Assembly (NCBI RefSeq): GCF_028561755.1
Contig: NZ_JAQQTD010000003.1
Coordinates: forward strand, 124,001 to 188,000
DNA from: Altibacter sp. HG106
GTDB taxonomy: Bacteria; Bacteroidota; Bacteroidia; Flavobacteriales; Flavobacteriaceae
DNA length: 64,000 nt
Direction: 5' to 3'
Part shown: positions 39,261-45,164 of the stretch, one piece after another
Layout: the number at the start of each line of letters is the position of its first letter
Position numbering within the stretch: the stretch's first letter is position 1
Translations under genes and position numbers: made by a program
The notes under the pieces: model-generated
What the model saw: the letters and a program-made list of their open reading frames with translations, nothing else
The model's database searches: none
Told to the model about the DNA's origin: nothing

Positions 39261-39650
39261 ATGCGATTTCAATATACCTTAAATATTCTGCTTATCAGTA
39301 TTTTACTGGTCTTTTCTGCGGAAACCGTGCTCGCGCAGCGGGCTACAGTGACGGTGCAACAGGACGAAAAAATTTCGGAACTGCTAACACTGAAAAAGGA
39401 ATTAGAGAAGGAAAACAAACTTTCCTCCAATTATACTATTCAGTTGTATTATGGAGAATTGGGTCAGGCCAACGCCATCATGCGACGCTATCGTGCTCGC
39501 TTTGGAAGCTGGCCTGCGTCTATAGAATACGAAACCCCAAATTACAAAGTATGGGTGGGCAATTTCAGTGAACGTCTAGAGGCCGATCGCGCCTTGATGC
39601 AGATCAAGGAACAGTTCTCTTCCGCGTTCATTCTGAAGCCCAATAAGTAA
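39261..39650 (+). CDS. SPOR domain-containing periplasmic protein
   Basis: A 129-residue exported protein: signal peptide (about 1-25, ending VLAQ), a short Lys/Glu-rich helical stretch (about 35-55) and a C-terminal SPOR-type domain (about 56-126) with YTIQLYYGEL.QANAIMRRY and YKVWVGNFSERLEADRAL, matching the beta-alpha-beta pattern of SPOR repeats. SPOR domains bind denuded glycan strands of peptidoglycan, often at the septum. There is no membrane anchor after signal cleavage, so it would be soluble in the periplasm. Monocistronic: own promoter and a terminator 15 bases after the stop. Confidence 0.85.
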   Translation: MRFQYTLNILLISILLVFSAETVLAQRATVTVQQDEKISELLTLKKELEKENKLSSNYTIQLYYGELGQANAIMRRYRARFGSWPASIEYETPNYKVWVGNFSERLEADRALMQIKEQFSSAFILKPNK

Positions 39651-39664
39651 TCCGCTAACCCCAT

Positions 39665-39696
39665 AAAAAAAGCCTCTTTTTCAAGAGGCTTTTTTA
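39665..39696. terminator. Bidirectional intrinsic terminator
   Basis: AAAAAAAGCCTCTT, a short loop, AAGAGGCTTTTTT. The stem is flanked by an A-run and a T-run, so it works in both directions, serving the SPOR gene (plus) and infB (minus), which converge here. Confidence 0.93.
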
Positions 39697-39713: not shown

Positions 39714-42413
39714 TTACAGCTTTTTCTTCACTGCCACTTCCTGAAAGGCTTCGATGATGTCGCCTTCTTTTATATCGTTGTAATTCTTCACCTGCATTCC
39801 GCAGTCGTATCCTTTAGACACTTCTTTCACATCGTCTTTAAAACGTTTTAGGGAAGCAAGTTCTCCGGTATACACCACAACCCCTTCACGAATAAGTCGC
39901 ACCCCACTGCTGCGGTAGATCTTACCGCTGGTGACCATACATCCTGCGATGGTTCCAATCTTCGAAATCTTGAAGGTTTCGCGGATCTCTGCCGTTCCGG
40001 TAACTTCTTCTTTCATTTCAGGAGACAACATTCCTTCCATCGCATCTTTCAGATCGTTGATGGCGTCATAGATGATAGAGTAGGTTCGGATATCGATCTC
40101 TTCTTTATCAGCGATCTGACGGGCGTTCCCCATGGGTCGCACATTAAATCCGATAATAATCGCGTCGGAAGCCGAAGCCAATAATACATCACTTTCGGTG
40201 ATCGCACCTACTCCTTTGTGAATGATATTAACCTGAATTTCTTCCGTAGAGAGTTTTAGGAAAGAATCCGTTAACGCTTCTACCGAACCGTCCACATCCC
40301 CTTTAAGGATGATATTCAGTTCTTTAAATTCACCAAGGGCGATACGTCTACCAATCTCATCAAGCGTGATATGGCGTTGTGTACGAACCGATTGTTCACG
40401 TTGCAATTGGGTACGCTTGTTCGCAATATCTTTCGCTTCTCTTTCGTCTGTAAAGACATTGAACTTATCCCCGGCCTGCGGCGCTCCGTCCAATCCGAGT
40501 ATACTCACCGGTGTGGAAGGTCCTGCAGCCTTTACGTTTTTACCGCGTTCGTCCTGCATGGCCTTTACCTTTCCGCTATGCTGACCCGCCAAGACGTAAT
40601 CCCCAATTTTCAAGGTTCCAGACTGCACCAAAATAGTTGATACATATCCACGCCCTTTATCAAGGAAGGCTTCTACAACCGTTCCGTAGGCGTCACGCTT
40701 CGGATTTGCTTTCAGCTCTAACAATTCGGCTTCCAGCAATACTTTCTCTAGCAATTCGTTCACACCCTCTCCGGTTTTCGCGGAAATGTCATGCGACTGA
40801 ATTTTACCGCCCCAATCTTCTACAAGTAAATTCATACCTGCCAATCCTTCTTTGATCTTCTCAGGATTTGCGGTGGGTTTATCAATTTTGTTGATGGCAA
40901 ATACAATAGGTACACCGGCTGCTTGGGCGTGTGAGATCGCTTCTTTGGTTTGCGGCATGATATCGTCATCCGCAGCCACAACGATAATGGCTAAGTCGGT
41001 TACCTGTGCCCCACGAGCACGCATGGCCGTAAAGGCCTCGTGACCCGGGGTATCTAGGAAGGCAATTTTTTGACCATTTTCCAGGGTCACTCCATAGGCA
41101 CCAATGTGCTGAGTGATCCCTCCAGATTCACCTGCAATTACATTCTCTTCCCGAATGTAATCCAGTAGCGAAGTTTTACCGTGGTCAACGTGTCCCATTA
41201 CGGTCACGATAGGTGCGCGTGGCGCTAAATCTTCGGGTGCATCTTCCTCATCCTGGATAGCTTCCTCAATATCGGCTGTGACGAATTCGACTTCGTAGCC
41301 AAATTCTTCCGCAACGATGGTAAGGGTTTCCGCATCCAAACGCTGGTTCATGGTTACCATCATTCCTAACGACATACAGGCAGAAATAACTTTCGTTACC
41401 GGTACGTCCATCATGGTCGCTATTTCACTTACGGTAACAAACTCGGTTACTTTCAGCAATTTGCTGTCCAGCTCTTGTTGTGCCTGTTCTTCCTCCGTCT
41501 TTTGTCGGTGAGAATCTCGTTTCTCACGACGGTATTTGGCACCTTTTCCTTTGGAAGATTTCCCTTGAAGTTTCTCGAGGGTCTCCCGTACTTGTCTTTG
41601 TACTTCTTCCTCGCTAGGCTCTTCTTTGGGGGTATTTCTTCTTCGGCCTCGGTTGTCTTTGTAATTGCCCTTCGACTTAGAAGGTTCTTTACTGATGCGA
41701 CGACGACGACCGCGTTTTTCTTTATTGGCGTCCTTTTTGTCCTTTTTCTTCCGTTCCGGTTTTTTGAACTTATCCAGATCAATTTTTTCACCGGTAAAGT
41801 TGGGACCGTCTAATTTCTTATAGTTAGTAGTAACCTTGTCGGAAGCATCTTCCTTCTTCTCGGCATCCTTCTCCTTTTTCTCTTCCTTGGCCTCCGCCGG
41901 TTTCGAATCGCTTGTTTCTTTTTTCGCAGGCGTTTCTTTTTTCTTTTTGGCTTTCGGTGCCGCTTCTTTTTTCTTCTCGGGCGCTTCTTTCTTCTCGGCT
42001 ACCTTTTCTTCTTTTTCAGCAGGTTTTTCTTCCGGAGTTTCCGACTTTTCTTGCTTCTTGTCGCCCCCTAAATCGATCTTCCCAACTTGTTTTGGACCAT
42101 CCAATTTAGCTTCCGCTTTAATTACTTTAGAGGCTTCGGCTTTTTCCTTTTCTTCCTGCTCTTTTTCGCGGGCCAAACGCAATTCTTCTTTCTCTTTGCG
42201 CTTTTCCTCACCCACTTCTTTGGAAGCTACCTTTTTGCTCTTATCGGTTTGAAATTCCTCAAACAGCACTTGGTATTCTTCCCCAGAAATTTTAGTGGTA
42301 GGGCGCGCATCCACCTCGTATCCTTTAGAACTTAAAAATTCTACGGCACGATCTAGTGAGATATTGAATTCACGCAATACCTTGCTAAGCCTCATTGTTT
42401 TTACTTCAGCCAT
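39714..42413 (-). CDS. infB: Translation initiation factor IF-2
   Basis: An 899-residue GTPase that places initiator tRNA on the 30S subunit. Layout: IF2_N-like helical start ([19 protein letters not shown]), a long Lys/Glu/Ala-rich disordered region (about 60-310), a second IF2_N domain (about 325-375), the G domain with G1 [12 protein letters not shown] at about 405, DTPGHEAF and NKID, then domains II-IV. Length is usual for Bacteroidota. It lies 59 bases downstream of nusA and ends at a bidirectional terminator. Confidence 0.98.
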
Positions 42414-42472: not shown

Positions 42473-43705
42473 CTACTCTTCAAATTCTTCTTTTAATATA
42501 CTAATTACTTCCCGAATGGTTTCTTCTTCCAAATCGGTTCTGCTCACCAAATCGGCTACCTCTTGTTCCAACACACTTTTCGCAGTGTCTAGTCCGATTT
42601 TATGAAATTCAGCAATAATCCAGTCTTCGATTTCATCTGAGAATTCTTTCAATTCTACATCTTCTTCCGCACCTTCGCGCAATACATCGATTTCATATCC
42701 GGTTAACTGTCCGGCCAAACGAATGTTATGTCCGCCACGACCAATCGCTTTCGACACTTCTTCCGGTTTCAAGATCACTTCAGCCCGCTTGGTTTCCTCA
42801 TTCAATTTGATGGAGGTTACTTTCGCCGGACTCAAGGCGCGGGTAATGAACAAGTTGATGTTATTGGTATAATTGATCACATCGATGTTCTCATTTCCTA
42901 ATTCGCGGACGATCCCGTGAATTCGGCTTCCTTTCATCCCAACACAAGCGCCAACCGGATCGATACGATCGTCGTAAGAATCGACCGCTACTTTTGCCTT
43001 TTCACCTGGAATACGAACTACTTTCTTCACCGTGATCAAGCCATCAAATACTTCTGGAATTTCTTGCTCGAACAATTTCTCCAAGAATAAAGGATGGGCG
43101 CGCGACATGAGGATCGCAGGCTTGTTTCCTTTCAGTTCCACGCTTTCGATGATTCCACGAACATTATCTCCTTTTCGGAAAAAGTCGGATGGAATCTGAC
43201 GGTCTTTAGGCAGGATGATCTCGTTTCCTTCATCATCCAACAAGATCACGGCACGGTGACGGATGTGGTGTACTTCCGCTGTGTAAATTTCTCCTTCGAG
43301 CTCTTTAAACTGCTTGTAAATATTTGTGTTATCGTGTTCGTGAATTTTAGAGATCAAATTCTGACGCAACGCCAAAATCGACCGACGACCTAAGTGCGAT
43401 AATTTTACCTCTTCCGAAACATCTTCTCCTACTTCAAAATCATCTTCAATCTTCCTAGCTTCCGTTAACGAAATTTGTTCGTTAGGATCTTCCACATCAC
43501 CATCGGCCACAACGATACGGTTTCTCCAAATTTCCAAATCCCCTTTGTCGGGGTTAATGATAATATCGAAGTTATCGTCGCTTCCGTATTTCTTCTTCAG
43601 GGCATTTCTGAAAACATCTTCCAAGATTGCCATGAGAGTTACCCGGTCAATGAGCTTATCATCTTTAAATTCCGAAAAGGAATCGATCAGCGCTAAATTT
43701 TCCAT
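42473..43705 (-). CDS. nusA: Transcription termination/antitermination factor NusA
   Basis: A 410-residue RNA-polymerase-binding factor: N-terminal domain (1-130), S1 domain (about 135-200, with [11 protein letters not shown]), KH1 with [20 protein letters not shown] and KH2 with [19 protein letters not shown]. It has only a short acidic tail and lacks the two C-terminal acidic repeats of E. coli NusA, which is normal outside Proteobacteria. It follows rimP by 14 bases. NusA affects pausing at hairpins, which matters because a terminator-like hairpin sits in this operon's leader. Confidence 0.98.
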
Positions 43706-43719
43706 GTCACGTTTTGCTA

Positions 43720-44181
43720 TTAATTAAATGTTACCATCACTTTGGCTTCCAGTATGTCGGAATAAGAAACAATCGCTTCTTTTTCAACGGTGTGTTTTCC
43801 TTTCCCAACGGGCTTCGGTTCGCGTGCTTTCCATTGAAGTGTAATTGTCGCATCATCTGCTTCAACCAACGTACCTTCAATTGTTTCTGCCTCGGTTTTT
43901 ACTTTCAATTTGCGCCCTACGTTCTTAACGTACTGTCGCATCATCTGCAAAGGCTCTGAAACACCGGCAGATAGTACTTCCAGAGAAAAATCGGTTTCTT
44001 CCCGATCGAGCTGATGCTCGATGGCCCGACTAATATCAATACAATCCTGAACGGTTACGCCCTGATCTCCATCAATAATTACTTTGATCTGATGGGCGGG
44101 GGAAATGCTCAATTCAATCAAGAATAACCCCTCTTTTTCATCGAGGGCATCCTGTAAGAGTTTTTCCACTTTTTCACGCAT
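43720..44181 (-). CDS. rimP: Ribosome maturation factor RimP
   Basis: A 153-residue two-domain protein needed for 30S assembly. The start at 44181 (MREKVEKLLQDALDEKEGLF) is the normal RimP N-terminus. An in-frame upstream extension to 44223 would run through the leader hairpin and is rejected. The N-terminal domain contains VIIDGDQGVTVQDCIDISRAIEHQLD and VLSAGVSEPL, diagnostic for the family, and the Sm-like C-terminal domain follows. First gene of rimP-nusA-infB. Confidence 0.96.
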   Translation of the reverse strand: MREKVEKLLQDALDEKEGLFLIELSISPAHQIKVIIDGDQGVTVQDCIDISRAIEHQLDREETDFSLEVLSAGVSEPLQMMRQYVKNVGRKLKVKTEAETIEGTLVEADDATITLQWKAREPKPVGKGKHTVEKEAIVSYSDILEAKVMVTFN

Positions 44182-44191
44182 AAAAACTAAG

Positions 44192-44236
44192 CTATAAAAA
44201 GAGGGGACTTTTCGTCCCCTCAACTGGTTGCTTCAT
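44192..44236 (-). CDS. Candidate 14-codon leader peptide upstream of rimP
   Basis: ATG to TAG encoding MKQPVEGTKSPLFL. It begins about 4 bases after the predicted transcription start, covers both arms of the leader terminator hairpin, and stops 10 bases before the rimP ATG. A ribosome translating it would prevent the hairpin from forming. No codon run points to a specific amino acid signal. It may be a coincidence of the short leader; support is positional only. Confidence 0.4.
   Translation of the reverse strand: MKQPVEGTKSPLFL
44196..44221 (-). terminator. Leader terminator/attenuator in front of rimP-nusA-infB
   Basis: On the minus strand GAGGGGAC, a 5-base loop and GTCCCCTC, then TTTTT. 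The 8-bp GC-rich stem plus T-tract is a standard intrinsic terminator. It has no upstream minus-strand gene to terminate (the neighbour is divergent), and lies between the TATATTTG promoter and rimP, as an attenuator would. Confidence 0.7.
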
Positions 44237-44246
44237 AAATTCGCTG

Positions 44247-44254
44247 CAAATATA
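44247..44254 (-). promoter_or_regulatory. -7 promoter element for rimP-nusA-infB
   Basis: The minus strand reads TATATTTG (full TAnnTTTG) with TTTT 19 bases upstream as a weak -33. Predicted +1 near 44240, giving a 59-base leader containing the hairpin and the short ORF. Confidence 0.6.
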
Positions 44255-44339: not shown

Positions 44340-45164
44340 ATGAAAAAAATACTCGTGCCTACCGACTTTTCTCCACAGGCGGAAAACGCGCTAAAGGTAG
44401 CCGTTGACATCGCTATCAAAGGAGACGCCGAACTGTACTTACTACATTCCGTTGAAATGCCACTACATCTCGCCAATAGCGGTGATACCGGTTCGCTGCC
44501 GGAAGCGCTGTATTTCATTAAATTGGCGGAAAAGAAATTTGAAACCTTACTCAAAGAACCCTATCTCAGCAAGGTCGTATTACACGAAGCGATTGGGCAC
44601 GGTGAAATATATAACGATATTAAAGAAACCGTGGCAACCAATGATATCGACCTCATTGTCATGGGCTCTCACGGAGCCAGTGGTTTTAAGGAAATGTTCA
44701 TTGGTAGCAATACCGAAAAAGTGGTGCGTACCTCCAACATTCCCGTACTGGTCATCAAGAACGAACATGCAGGGTTCGACGTAGCCGATTTTGTGTTTGC
44801 AACCGACTTTACCGAGGAATGTCAGGAACCGTTTGAAGCGGCCCGATCATTTGCTCAGTTCGCCGGTGCGAAGATTCATTTGTTGTATGTCAATACGCCT
44901 AGCGGCTTTAAAACCACTAGCGAGACCTATTCACTCATGCAAAAATTCGTGTCGCATGTTCCAGAGCAAGAATATACGCTTAACATCTACAACGACTATT
45001 CGGTAGAGAAAGGGATTTTAGCCTTCGCTCGTGATCATGAAGCACAACTTATTGGGATTAGCACACACGGAAGAAAAGGCCTGAGCCATTTTTTTAACGG
45101 CAGTATTAGTGAAGACATGGTAAACCACGCCAAAATGCCGGTAATTACGTTCAAAATTCCGTGA
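44340..45164 (+). CDS. Universal stress protein, tandem UspA domains
   Basis: A 274-residue cytoplasmic protein with two Usp domains. Domain 1 (1-145) starts MKKILVPTDFSPQAENAL and has the ATP-binding-type loop MGSHGASGFKEMFIGS; domain 2 (about 150-274) has [18 protein letters not shown] and ends PVITFKIP. Both keep the G-2x-G-9x-G(S/T) pattern, so nucleotide binding is plausible for each. The ATG at 44340 fits the Usp N-terminus; an in-frame start 8 codons earlier is less likely. It is followed, with overlapping stop/start, by a lipoprotein gene. Confidence 0.93.
   Translation: MKKILVPTDFSPQAENALKVAVDIAIKGDAELYLLHSVEMPLHLANSGDTGSLPEALYFIKLAEKKFETLLKEPYLSKVVLHEAIGHGEIYNDIKETVATNDIDLIVMGSHGASGFKEMFIGSNTEKVVRTSNIPVLVIKNEHAGFDVADFVFATDFTEECQEPFEAARSFAQFAGAKIHLLYVNTPSGFKTTSETYSLMQKFVSHVPEQEYTLNIYNDYSVEKGILAFARDHEAQLIGISTHGRKGLSHFFNGSISEDMVNHAKMPVITFKIP

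Follow-up and report, generated by a model that had tools for sequence, protein, structure and literature searches.

Organization of the rimP leader

The window (the whole 64,000-nucleotide stretch that was analysed) carries a rimP-nusA-infB operon on its minus strand, preceded by a short leader in which a promoter element, a hairpin followed by a T-tract and a small open reading frame (ORF) lie close together. The features used below are as follows.

44254-44247, minus strand: TAnnTTTG promoter element TATATTTG, the -7 box of Bacteroidota
44238-44243, minus strand: likely transcription start region, placed relative to the -7 box
44236-44192, minus strand: 14-codon ORF MKQPVEGTKSPLFL, judged fortuitous
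44221-44201, minus strand: putative terminator hairpin, stem GAGGGGAC, loop GAAAA, stem GTCCCCTC (8 bp, 6 of them G-C)
44200-44196, minus strand: T-tract TTTTT of the terminator, then ATAG
43720-44181, minus strand: rimP, first gene of the operon, ATG at 44181 (NF002531, 211 bits, cut-off 123)
42473-43705, minus strand: nusA, encoding the proposed feedback factor (TIGR01953, 363 bits, above cut-off)
39714-42413, minus strand: infB, encoding IF2 (TIGR00487, 826 bits, above cut-off)
44340-45161, plus strand: universal-stress-protein-like gene, divergent, nearest upstream of the leader

An earlier note on this DNA had described the promoter motif, the hairpin with its T-tract and the ORF covering both arms, and all were found in place. 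In the window the spacer between the TATATTTG box and the hairpin is 25 nt long and the end of the stem lies 19 nt from the rimP ATG; with the start site placed as above, the hairpin would begin about 20 nt into the operon transcript. The same note had stated that the terminator has no upstream minus-strand gene to serve, and this is correct, since the nearest upstream gene is divergent and on the plus strand. At the other end of the operon, a long A/T-flanked hairpin, AAAAAAGCCTC..GAGGCTTTTTT (39666-39695), lies between infB and a convergent plus-strand ORF (39261-39650); it probably serves the operon as a bidirectional terminator.

Conservation of the hairpin in Flavobacteriaceae

Of 149 genomes of the family, 140 yielded a RimP match; nusA follows rimP at all 140 loci, and the leaders of 90 were read. 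A scan blind to the sequence of the stem scored a hairpin with a T-tract in 84 of these 90 leaders; the other six contain a bulged or variant hairpin, recognized by eye, so that the hairpin is present in 90/90 sampled leaders. In one leader (L020), the scored hairpin is not the true one, which is found further upstream. The scan also placed a TAnnTTTG box ahead of the stem in 81 of the 90 leaders, at a gap of 18-31 nt (median 26). A second sample of 80 named relatives, which include Aureitalea, Aequorivita, Salegentibacter, Christiangramia, Aquimarina and Flagellimonas and whose genomes are partly shared with the first sample, gave 80/80 (78 by pattern and two variants by eye). In a set selected by a regular expression, a selection that inflates the value, the 5' arm was 99% identical, compared with 38% for the 20-nt spacer and the beginning of rimP; in an alignment unselected for stem sequence (A1), most stem columns were above 90%. 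The columns of the T-tract were invariant or nearly so among 62 leaders. The alignment of leaders across the family proposed in the earlier note thus shows a stem conserved in sequence, structure, position and spacing from the promoter.

Two features of subsets of leaders were also observed. Nineteen leaders, a subset that includes Flagellimonas and Allomuricauda, share a conserved spacer ACTGAAMGGATAN..GTATTCATGAGGGGAC (L019, L020, L024, L027, L028, L036, L056, L061, L083, L084, L086, L207, L215, L220, L225, L226, L236, L242 and L244), and have a small extra stem, GRATA/TATTC, just before the terminator (GGATA in 15 of them, GAATA in four). In five others (L058, L063, L066, L068 and L081) the rimP leader is closely preceded by a co-directional tRNA-Gln (ttg) gene, which recalls the position of metY before rimP in Escherichia coli; in L066 the promoter box is absent between this tRNA gene and the hairpin.

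The element occurs once per genome, upstream of rimP

The exact motif GGGGAC-N3-6-GTCCCCTCTTTT was found in 106 of the 149 genomes, once in each, and its reversed control in none; all 106 occurrences lie 10-70 nt upstream of the RimP match. A covariance model built on promoter and hairpin retrieved the rimP leader as its sole strong match in the window's own genome (7e-9, the next match being at 0.13). The element is consequently not a terminator sequence of general use, and a mobile or repeated element was rejected on its single copy per genome. No Rfam family reached threshold in the window, with chance-level matches only at E up to 10, and RF01770, the gammaproteobacterial rimP leader, was below threshold and gave no match even with E allowed up to 10; a known riboswitch or Rfam leader was accordingly rejected.

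Within the 64-kb window, the TAnnTTTG box alone was not enriched (45 found, 51 expected), and the scan for hairpins with a T-tract barely exceeded shuffled sequences (18 compared with 13.6), although the leader hairpin has the most G-C pairs among the matches of that scan. The specific motif occurs once in the window, for 0.00 expected from shuffles, and the leader has a strong fold (-20.2 kcal/mol, z = -4.4). Because promoter box and hairpin as a class are not clearly above chance in the window, it is the comparison across genomes that decides, and, judged from these sequences, conservation is what raises the element above chance. An outer AAGC/GCUU helix around the terminator of the window was not consistently kept in relatives when compared by eye, and is not claimed.

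Stem variation within the family and across the phylum

In the set of 62 leaders, both partners have changed in five of the eight stem pairs, which no shuffle out of 500 equalled, and pairing is kept in 95.8% of cells, compared with 43-75% in controls with slid partners. The changed cells are few (five), since the stem hardly varies within the family, and within-family covariation thus rests on few sequences.

Outside the family, a terminator-like hairpin was present within 150 nt of rimP in 42 of 53 leaders, compared with 8% of shuffles. The stems found there, in the corresponding position and each with a T-rich tail, include GAAGGGAACG/CGTTCCCTTC, TGGGGGC/GCCCCCA, AGTGGGA/TCCCACT, GTCCCGC/GCGGGAC and CGCCC/GGGCG, and several further leaders show this form with a larger loop. 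The sequence of the stem therefore differs outside the family, with compensation, while a hairpin and T-tract before rimP are kept across the phylum; on these alignments, the evidence from compensation is stronger outside the family than within it. Four leaders from other classes of the phylum (L155, L156, L162 and L163) have an inverted stem polarity, CGCCC..GGGCG, with a C-rich 5' arm, and in this resemble the upstream tandem terminator that PMC2965389 describes for Gammaproteobacteria.

Comparison with known leaders of nusA operons

The rimP-leader attenuator is described in the main text of Naville and Gautheret (2010; PMC2965389) as located 4-130 nt before the rimP start, with a suggestion by its authors of NusA feedback. 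As far as that description goes, it has in common with the window a short hairpin with a G-rich 5' arm and a C-rich 3' arm, a T-tract, a position directly before rimP-nusA-infB, an unusually conserved stem and no visible antiterminator. No larger conserved element was found in the window leader, which again agrees with the rimP leaders described there. Compared with the consensus GGGc/gCCC given there, the window stem GAGGGGAC/GTCCCCTC is a partial fit: in GGGGAC..GTCCCC, the GGG/CCC and the C-G closing pair are kept with an A-U between them; some relatives (L051, L069) have a GGGGC..GCCCC stem. The main text of that paper contains no mention of Bacteroidetes or flavobacteria.

In Bacillus subtilis, NusA autoregulation is reported to occur by NusA-stimulated termination in the leader of its operon (review PMC12288461). 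An intrinsic terminator in the leader of an operon encoding NusA is common to that system and to the window; negative feedback by NusA is reported in B. subtilis, whereas in the window a response to NusA is a prediction, and the leader in B. subtilis measures about 180 nt in the account of PMC2965389, compared with about 20 nt from start to stem here. The closest match in anatomy, compared as such and not by sequence, comes from a different phylum: in the Streptococcus agalactiae gbs0413-gbs0418 operon (rimP-nusA-infB), an intrinsic terminator ahead of rimP ends transcription 31 nt from the start site, and a NusA feedback loop was proposed (PMC4448216). The E. coli metY-rimP-nusA-infB operon is regulated by NusA itself and has two terminators, t1 and t2, upstream of rimP (PMC6511841); that arrangement differs by its two terminators and its tRNA gene metY, and RF01770, which models the gammaproteobacterial leader, is without a match in the window. 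By analogy with these systems, for which feedback was reported (B. subtilis) or proposed (E. coli, S. agalactiae), a NusA feedback loop at the window leader is plausible.

Within Flavobacteriaceae, a 2021 transcriptome study of Flavobacterium psychrophilum (PMC9723704) noted, as one of several in its main text, a structured 5' element ahead of rimP; the element was reported to be shared by other genera of the family and to have no Rfam match, and neither its sequence nor a mechanism is given there. On that description, it is very probably the same element as that of the window. In conclusion, sequence comparison gives good support to placing the element in a known attenuator class, as a well-conserved member with a stem sequence of its own; the kind of switch is already known.

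A probable promoter-proximal terminator, with NusA feedback as its most likely control

We propose that the element is the Bacteroidota form of the rimP-leader attenuator, in which read-through sets the output of the operon and negative feedback by NusA is the most likely control (probability about 0.68). The intrinsic terminator would stop a fraction of RNA polymerases before rimP, and read-through would thereby set operon output. NusA stimulates hairpin-dependent termination. Since the operon encodes NusA, negative feedback would be a natural control: at high NusA levels, pausing and termination at the hairpin would be stronger, and at low levels polymerase would pass the hairpin into rimP-nusA-infB. 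Termination at the hairpin in vivo is highly probable and, given termination, NusA is likely to be the main sensor. Whatever the sensor, the element very probably sets or self-limits the output of the operon. Of the earlier proposal of an attenuator before rimP-nusA-infB, the conserved leader terminator without an upstream gene is retained, and control by translation of the ORF is not.

The stem is conserved beyond the needs of a generic terminator, which counts against this proposal in its simplest form, as plain NusA-stimulated termination alone would not explain it. The partial fit to the GGGc/gCCC motif and the few sequences behind the within-family covariation also count against it. A tentative possibility is that the stem is a specific recognition site whose sequence is read by NusA or by another factor. 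If so, Bacteroidota would have a minimal sequence-specific feedback terminator at the promoter, and each class would have re-coded the recognition sequence along with its reader.

The hairpin might instead be a constitutive, unregulated premature terminator that lowers expression of the operon by a fixed factor. Such a terminator would agree with the very short leader: the approximately 20 nt from start to stem leave no room for a ligand-binding domain, and an antiterminator in the 25-nt spacer was rejected, as the pairing of the spacer with the 5' arm had no sizeable effect (mean -1.4 kcal/mol, compared with -1.2 kcal/mol in shuffles). The 5' arm is little sequestered by so short a spacer, hence no antiterminator is visible. 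A fixed-factor terminator is nevertheless rendered unlikely by a stem sequence that is near-invariant over more than 100 genera, and by the accounts of feedback at the B. subtilis leader and in the E. coli operon.

It is also improbable that the hairpin acts after transcription, stabilizing the mRNA or shaping the initiation of rimP translation, and is not a terminator. In most Flavobacteriaceae only about 14-28 nt separate its end from the RimP match, close enough that ribosome binding could be affected; however, the T-tract is kept with the stem even where the sequence of the stem differs, and even where the hairpin is 50-116 nt away from the RimP match, and the S. agalactiae terminator at the same position yields a short RNA (PMC4448216).

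The nested 14-codon ORF is not conserved

The 14-codon ORF offered another mode of control, in which ribosomes translating it would cover the stem and block termination, expression then tracking the capacity for translation. The window ORF MKQPVEGTKSPLFL does span both arms, but it is intact only in its genus (two genomes, the window and its sister). The next nearest genome (L003, 74% RimP identity) has no ATG there, and in L004 (68% RimP identity), which retains the ATG of the window ORF, codon 3 is already a stop. In addition, only 10 nt separate the TTTG box from the ATG in the window, which would make for a nearly leaderless start.

Among 133 distinct leaders, 58 have no ATG at all and 26 have one more than 5 nt before the stem, with a frame that passes the stem in 17; the peptides of these 17 are in different frames and have different end points. 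Loops are 3, 4, 5, 6 or 7 nt long, which places the second arm in all frames and breaks any common one, and no run of regulatory codons was observed in the leader ORFs of this set. The conserved stem is itself open in all three frames, and ORFs therefore arise through it by chance. ATG ORFs reaching through the stem were somewhat commoner than in spacer shuffles (35 of 81 leaders, compared with 20.0), an excess mainly due to an ATG fused to the stem base, ATGAGGGGAC, in many leaders; it is present in 51 of the 133 and leads to different frames. In some genomes this stem-base ATG is in frame with rimP. The idea that translation of the ORF prevents terminator folding is not borne out, and leader-peptide control through the 14-codon ORF was rejected; compared across genomes, it is already largely refuted and very improbable.

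Finally, that the hairpin is the 3' terminator of an upstream gene, placed before rimP by accident, is refuted for the window, which has no such gene on the minus strand, and is scarcely credible elsewhere: co-directional tRNA-Gln genes just upstream in a few genomes would suit it, but the upstream neighbour is divergent at 104 of 106 loci, which argues for a leader terminator, and in nearly all leaders a promoter box stands at fixed spacing between the upstream gene and the hairpin.

Implications

These comparisons show how widely rimP-nusA-infB is headed by a promoter-proximal terminator across Bacteroidota, a phylum in which post-initiation control is little studied. As no Rfam model covers it, the element would make a clean new RNA family. 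Being compact and unusually conserved, it also lends itself to tests of NusA feedback in non-model bacteria.
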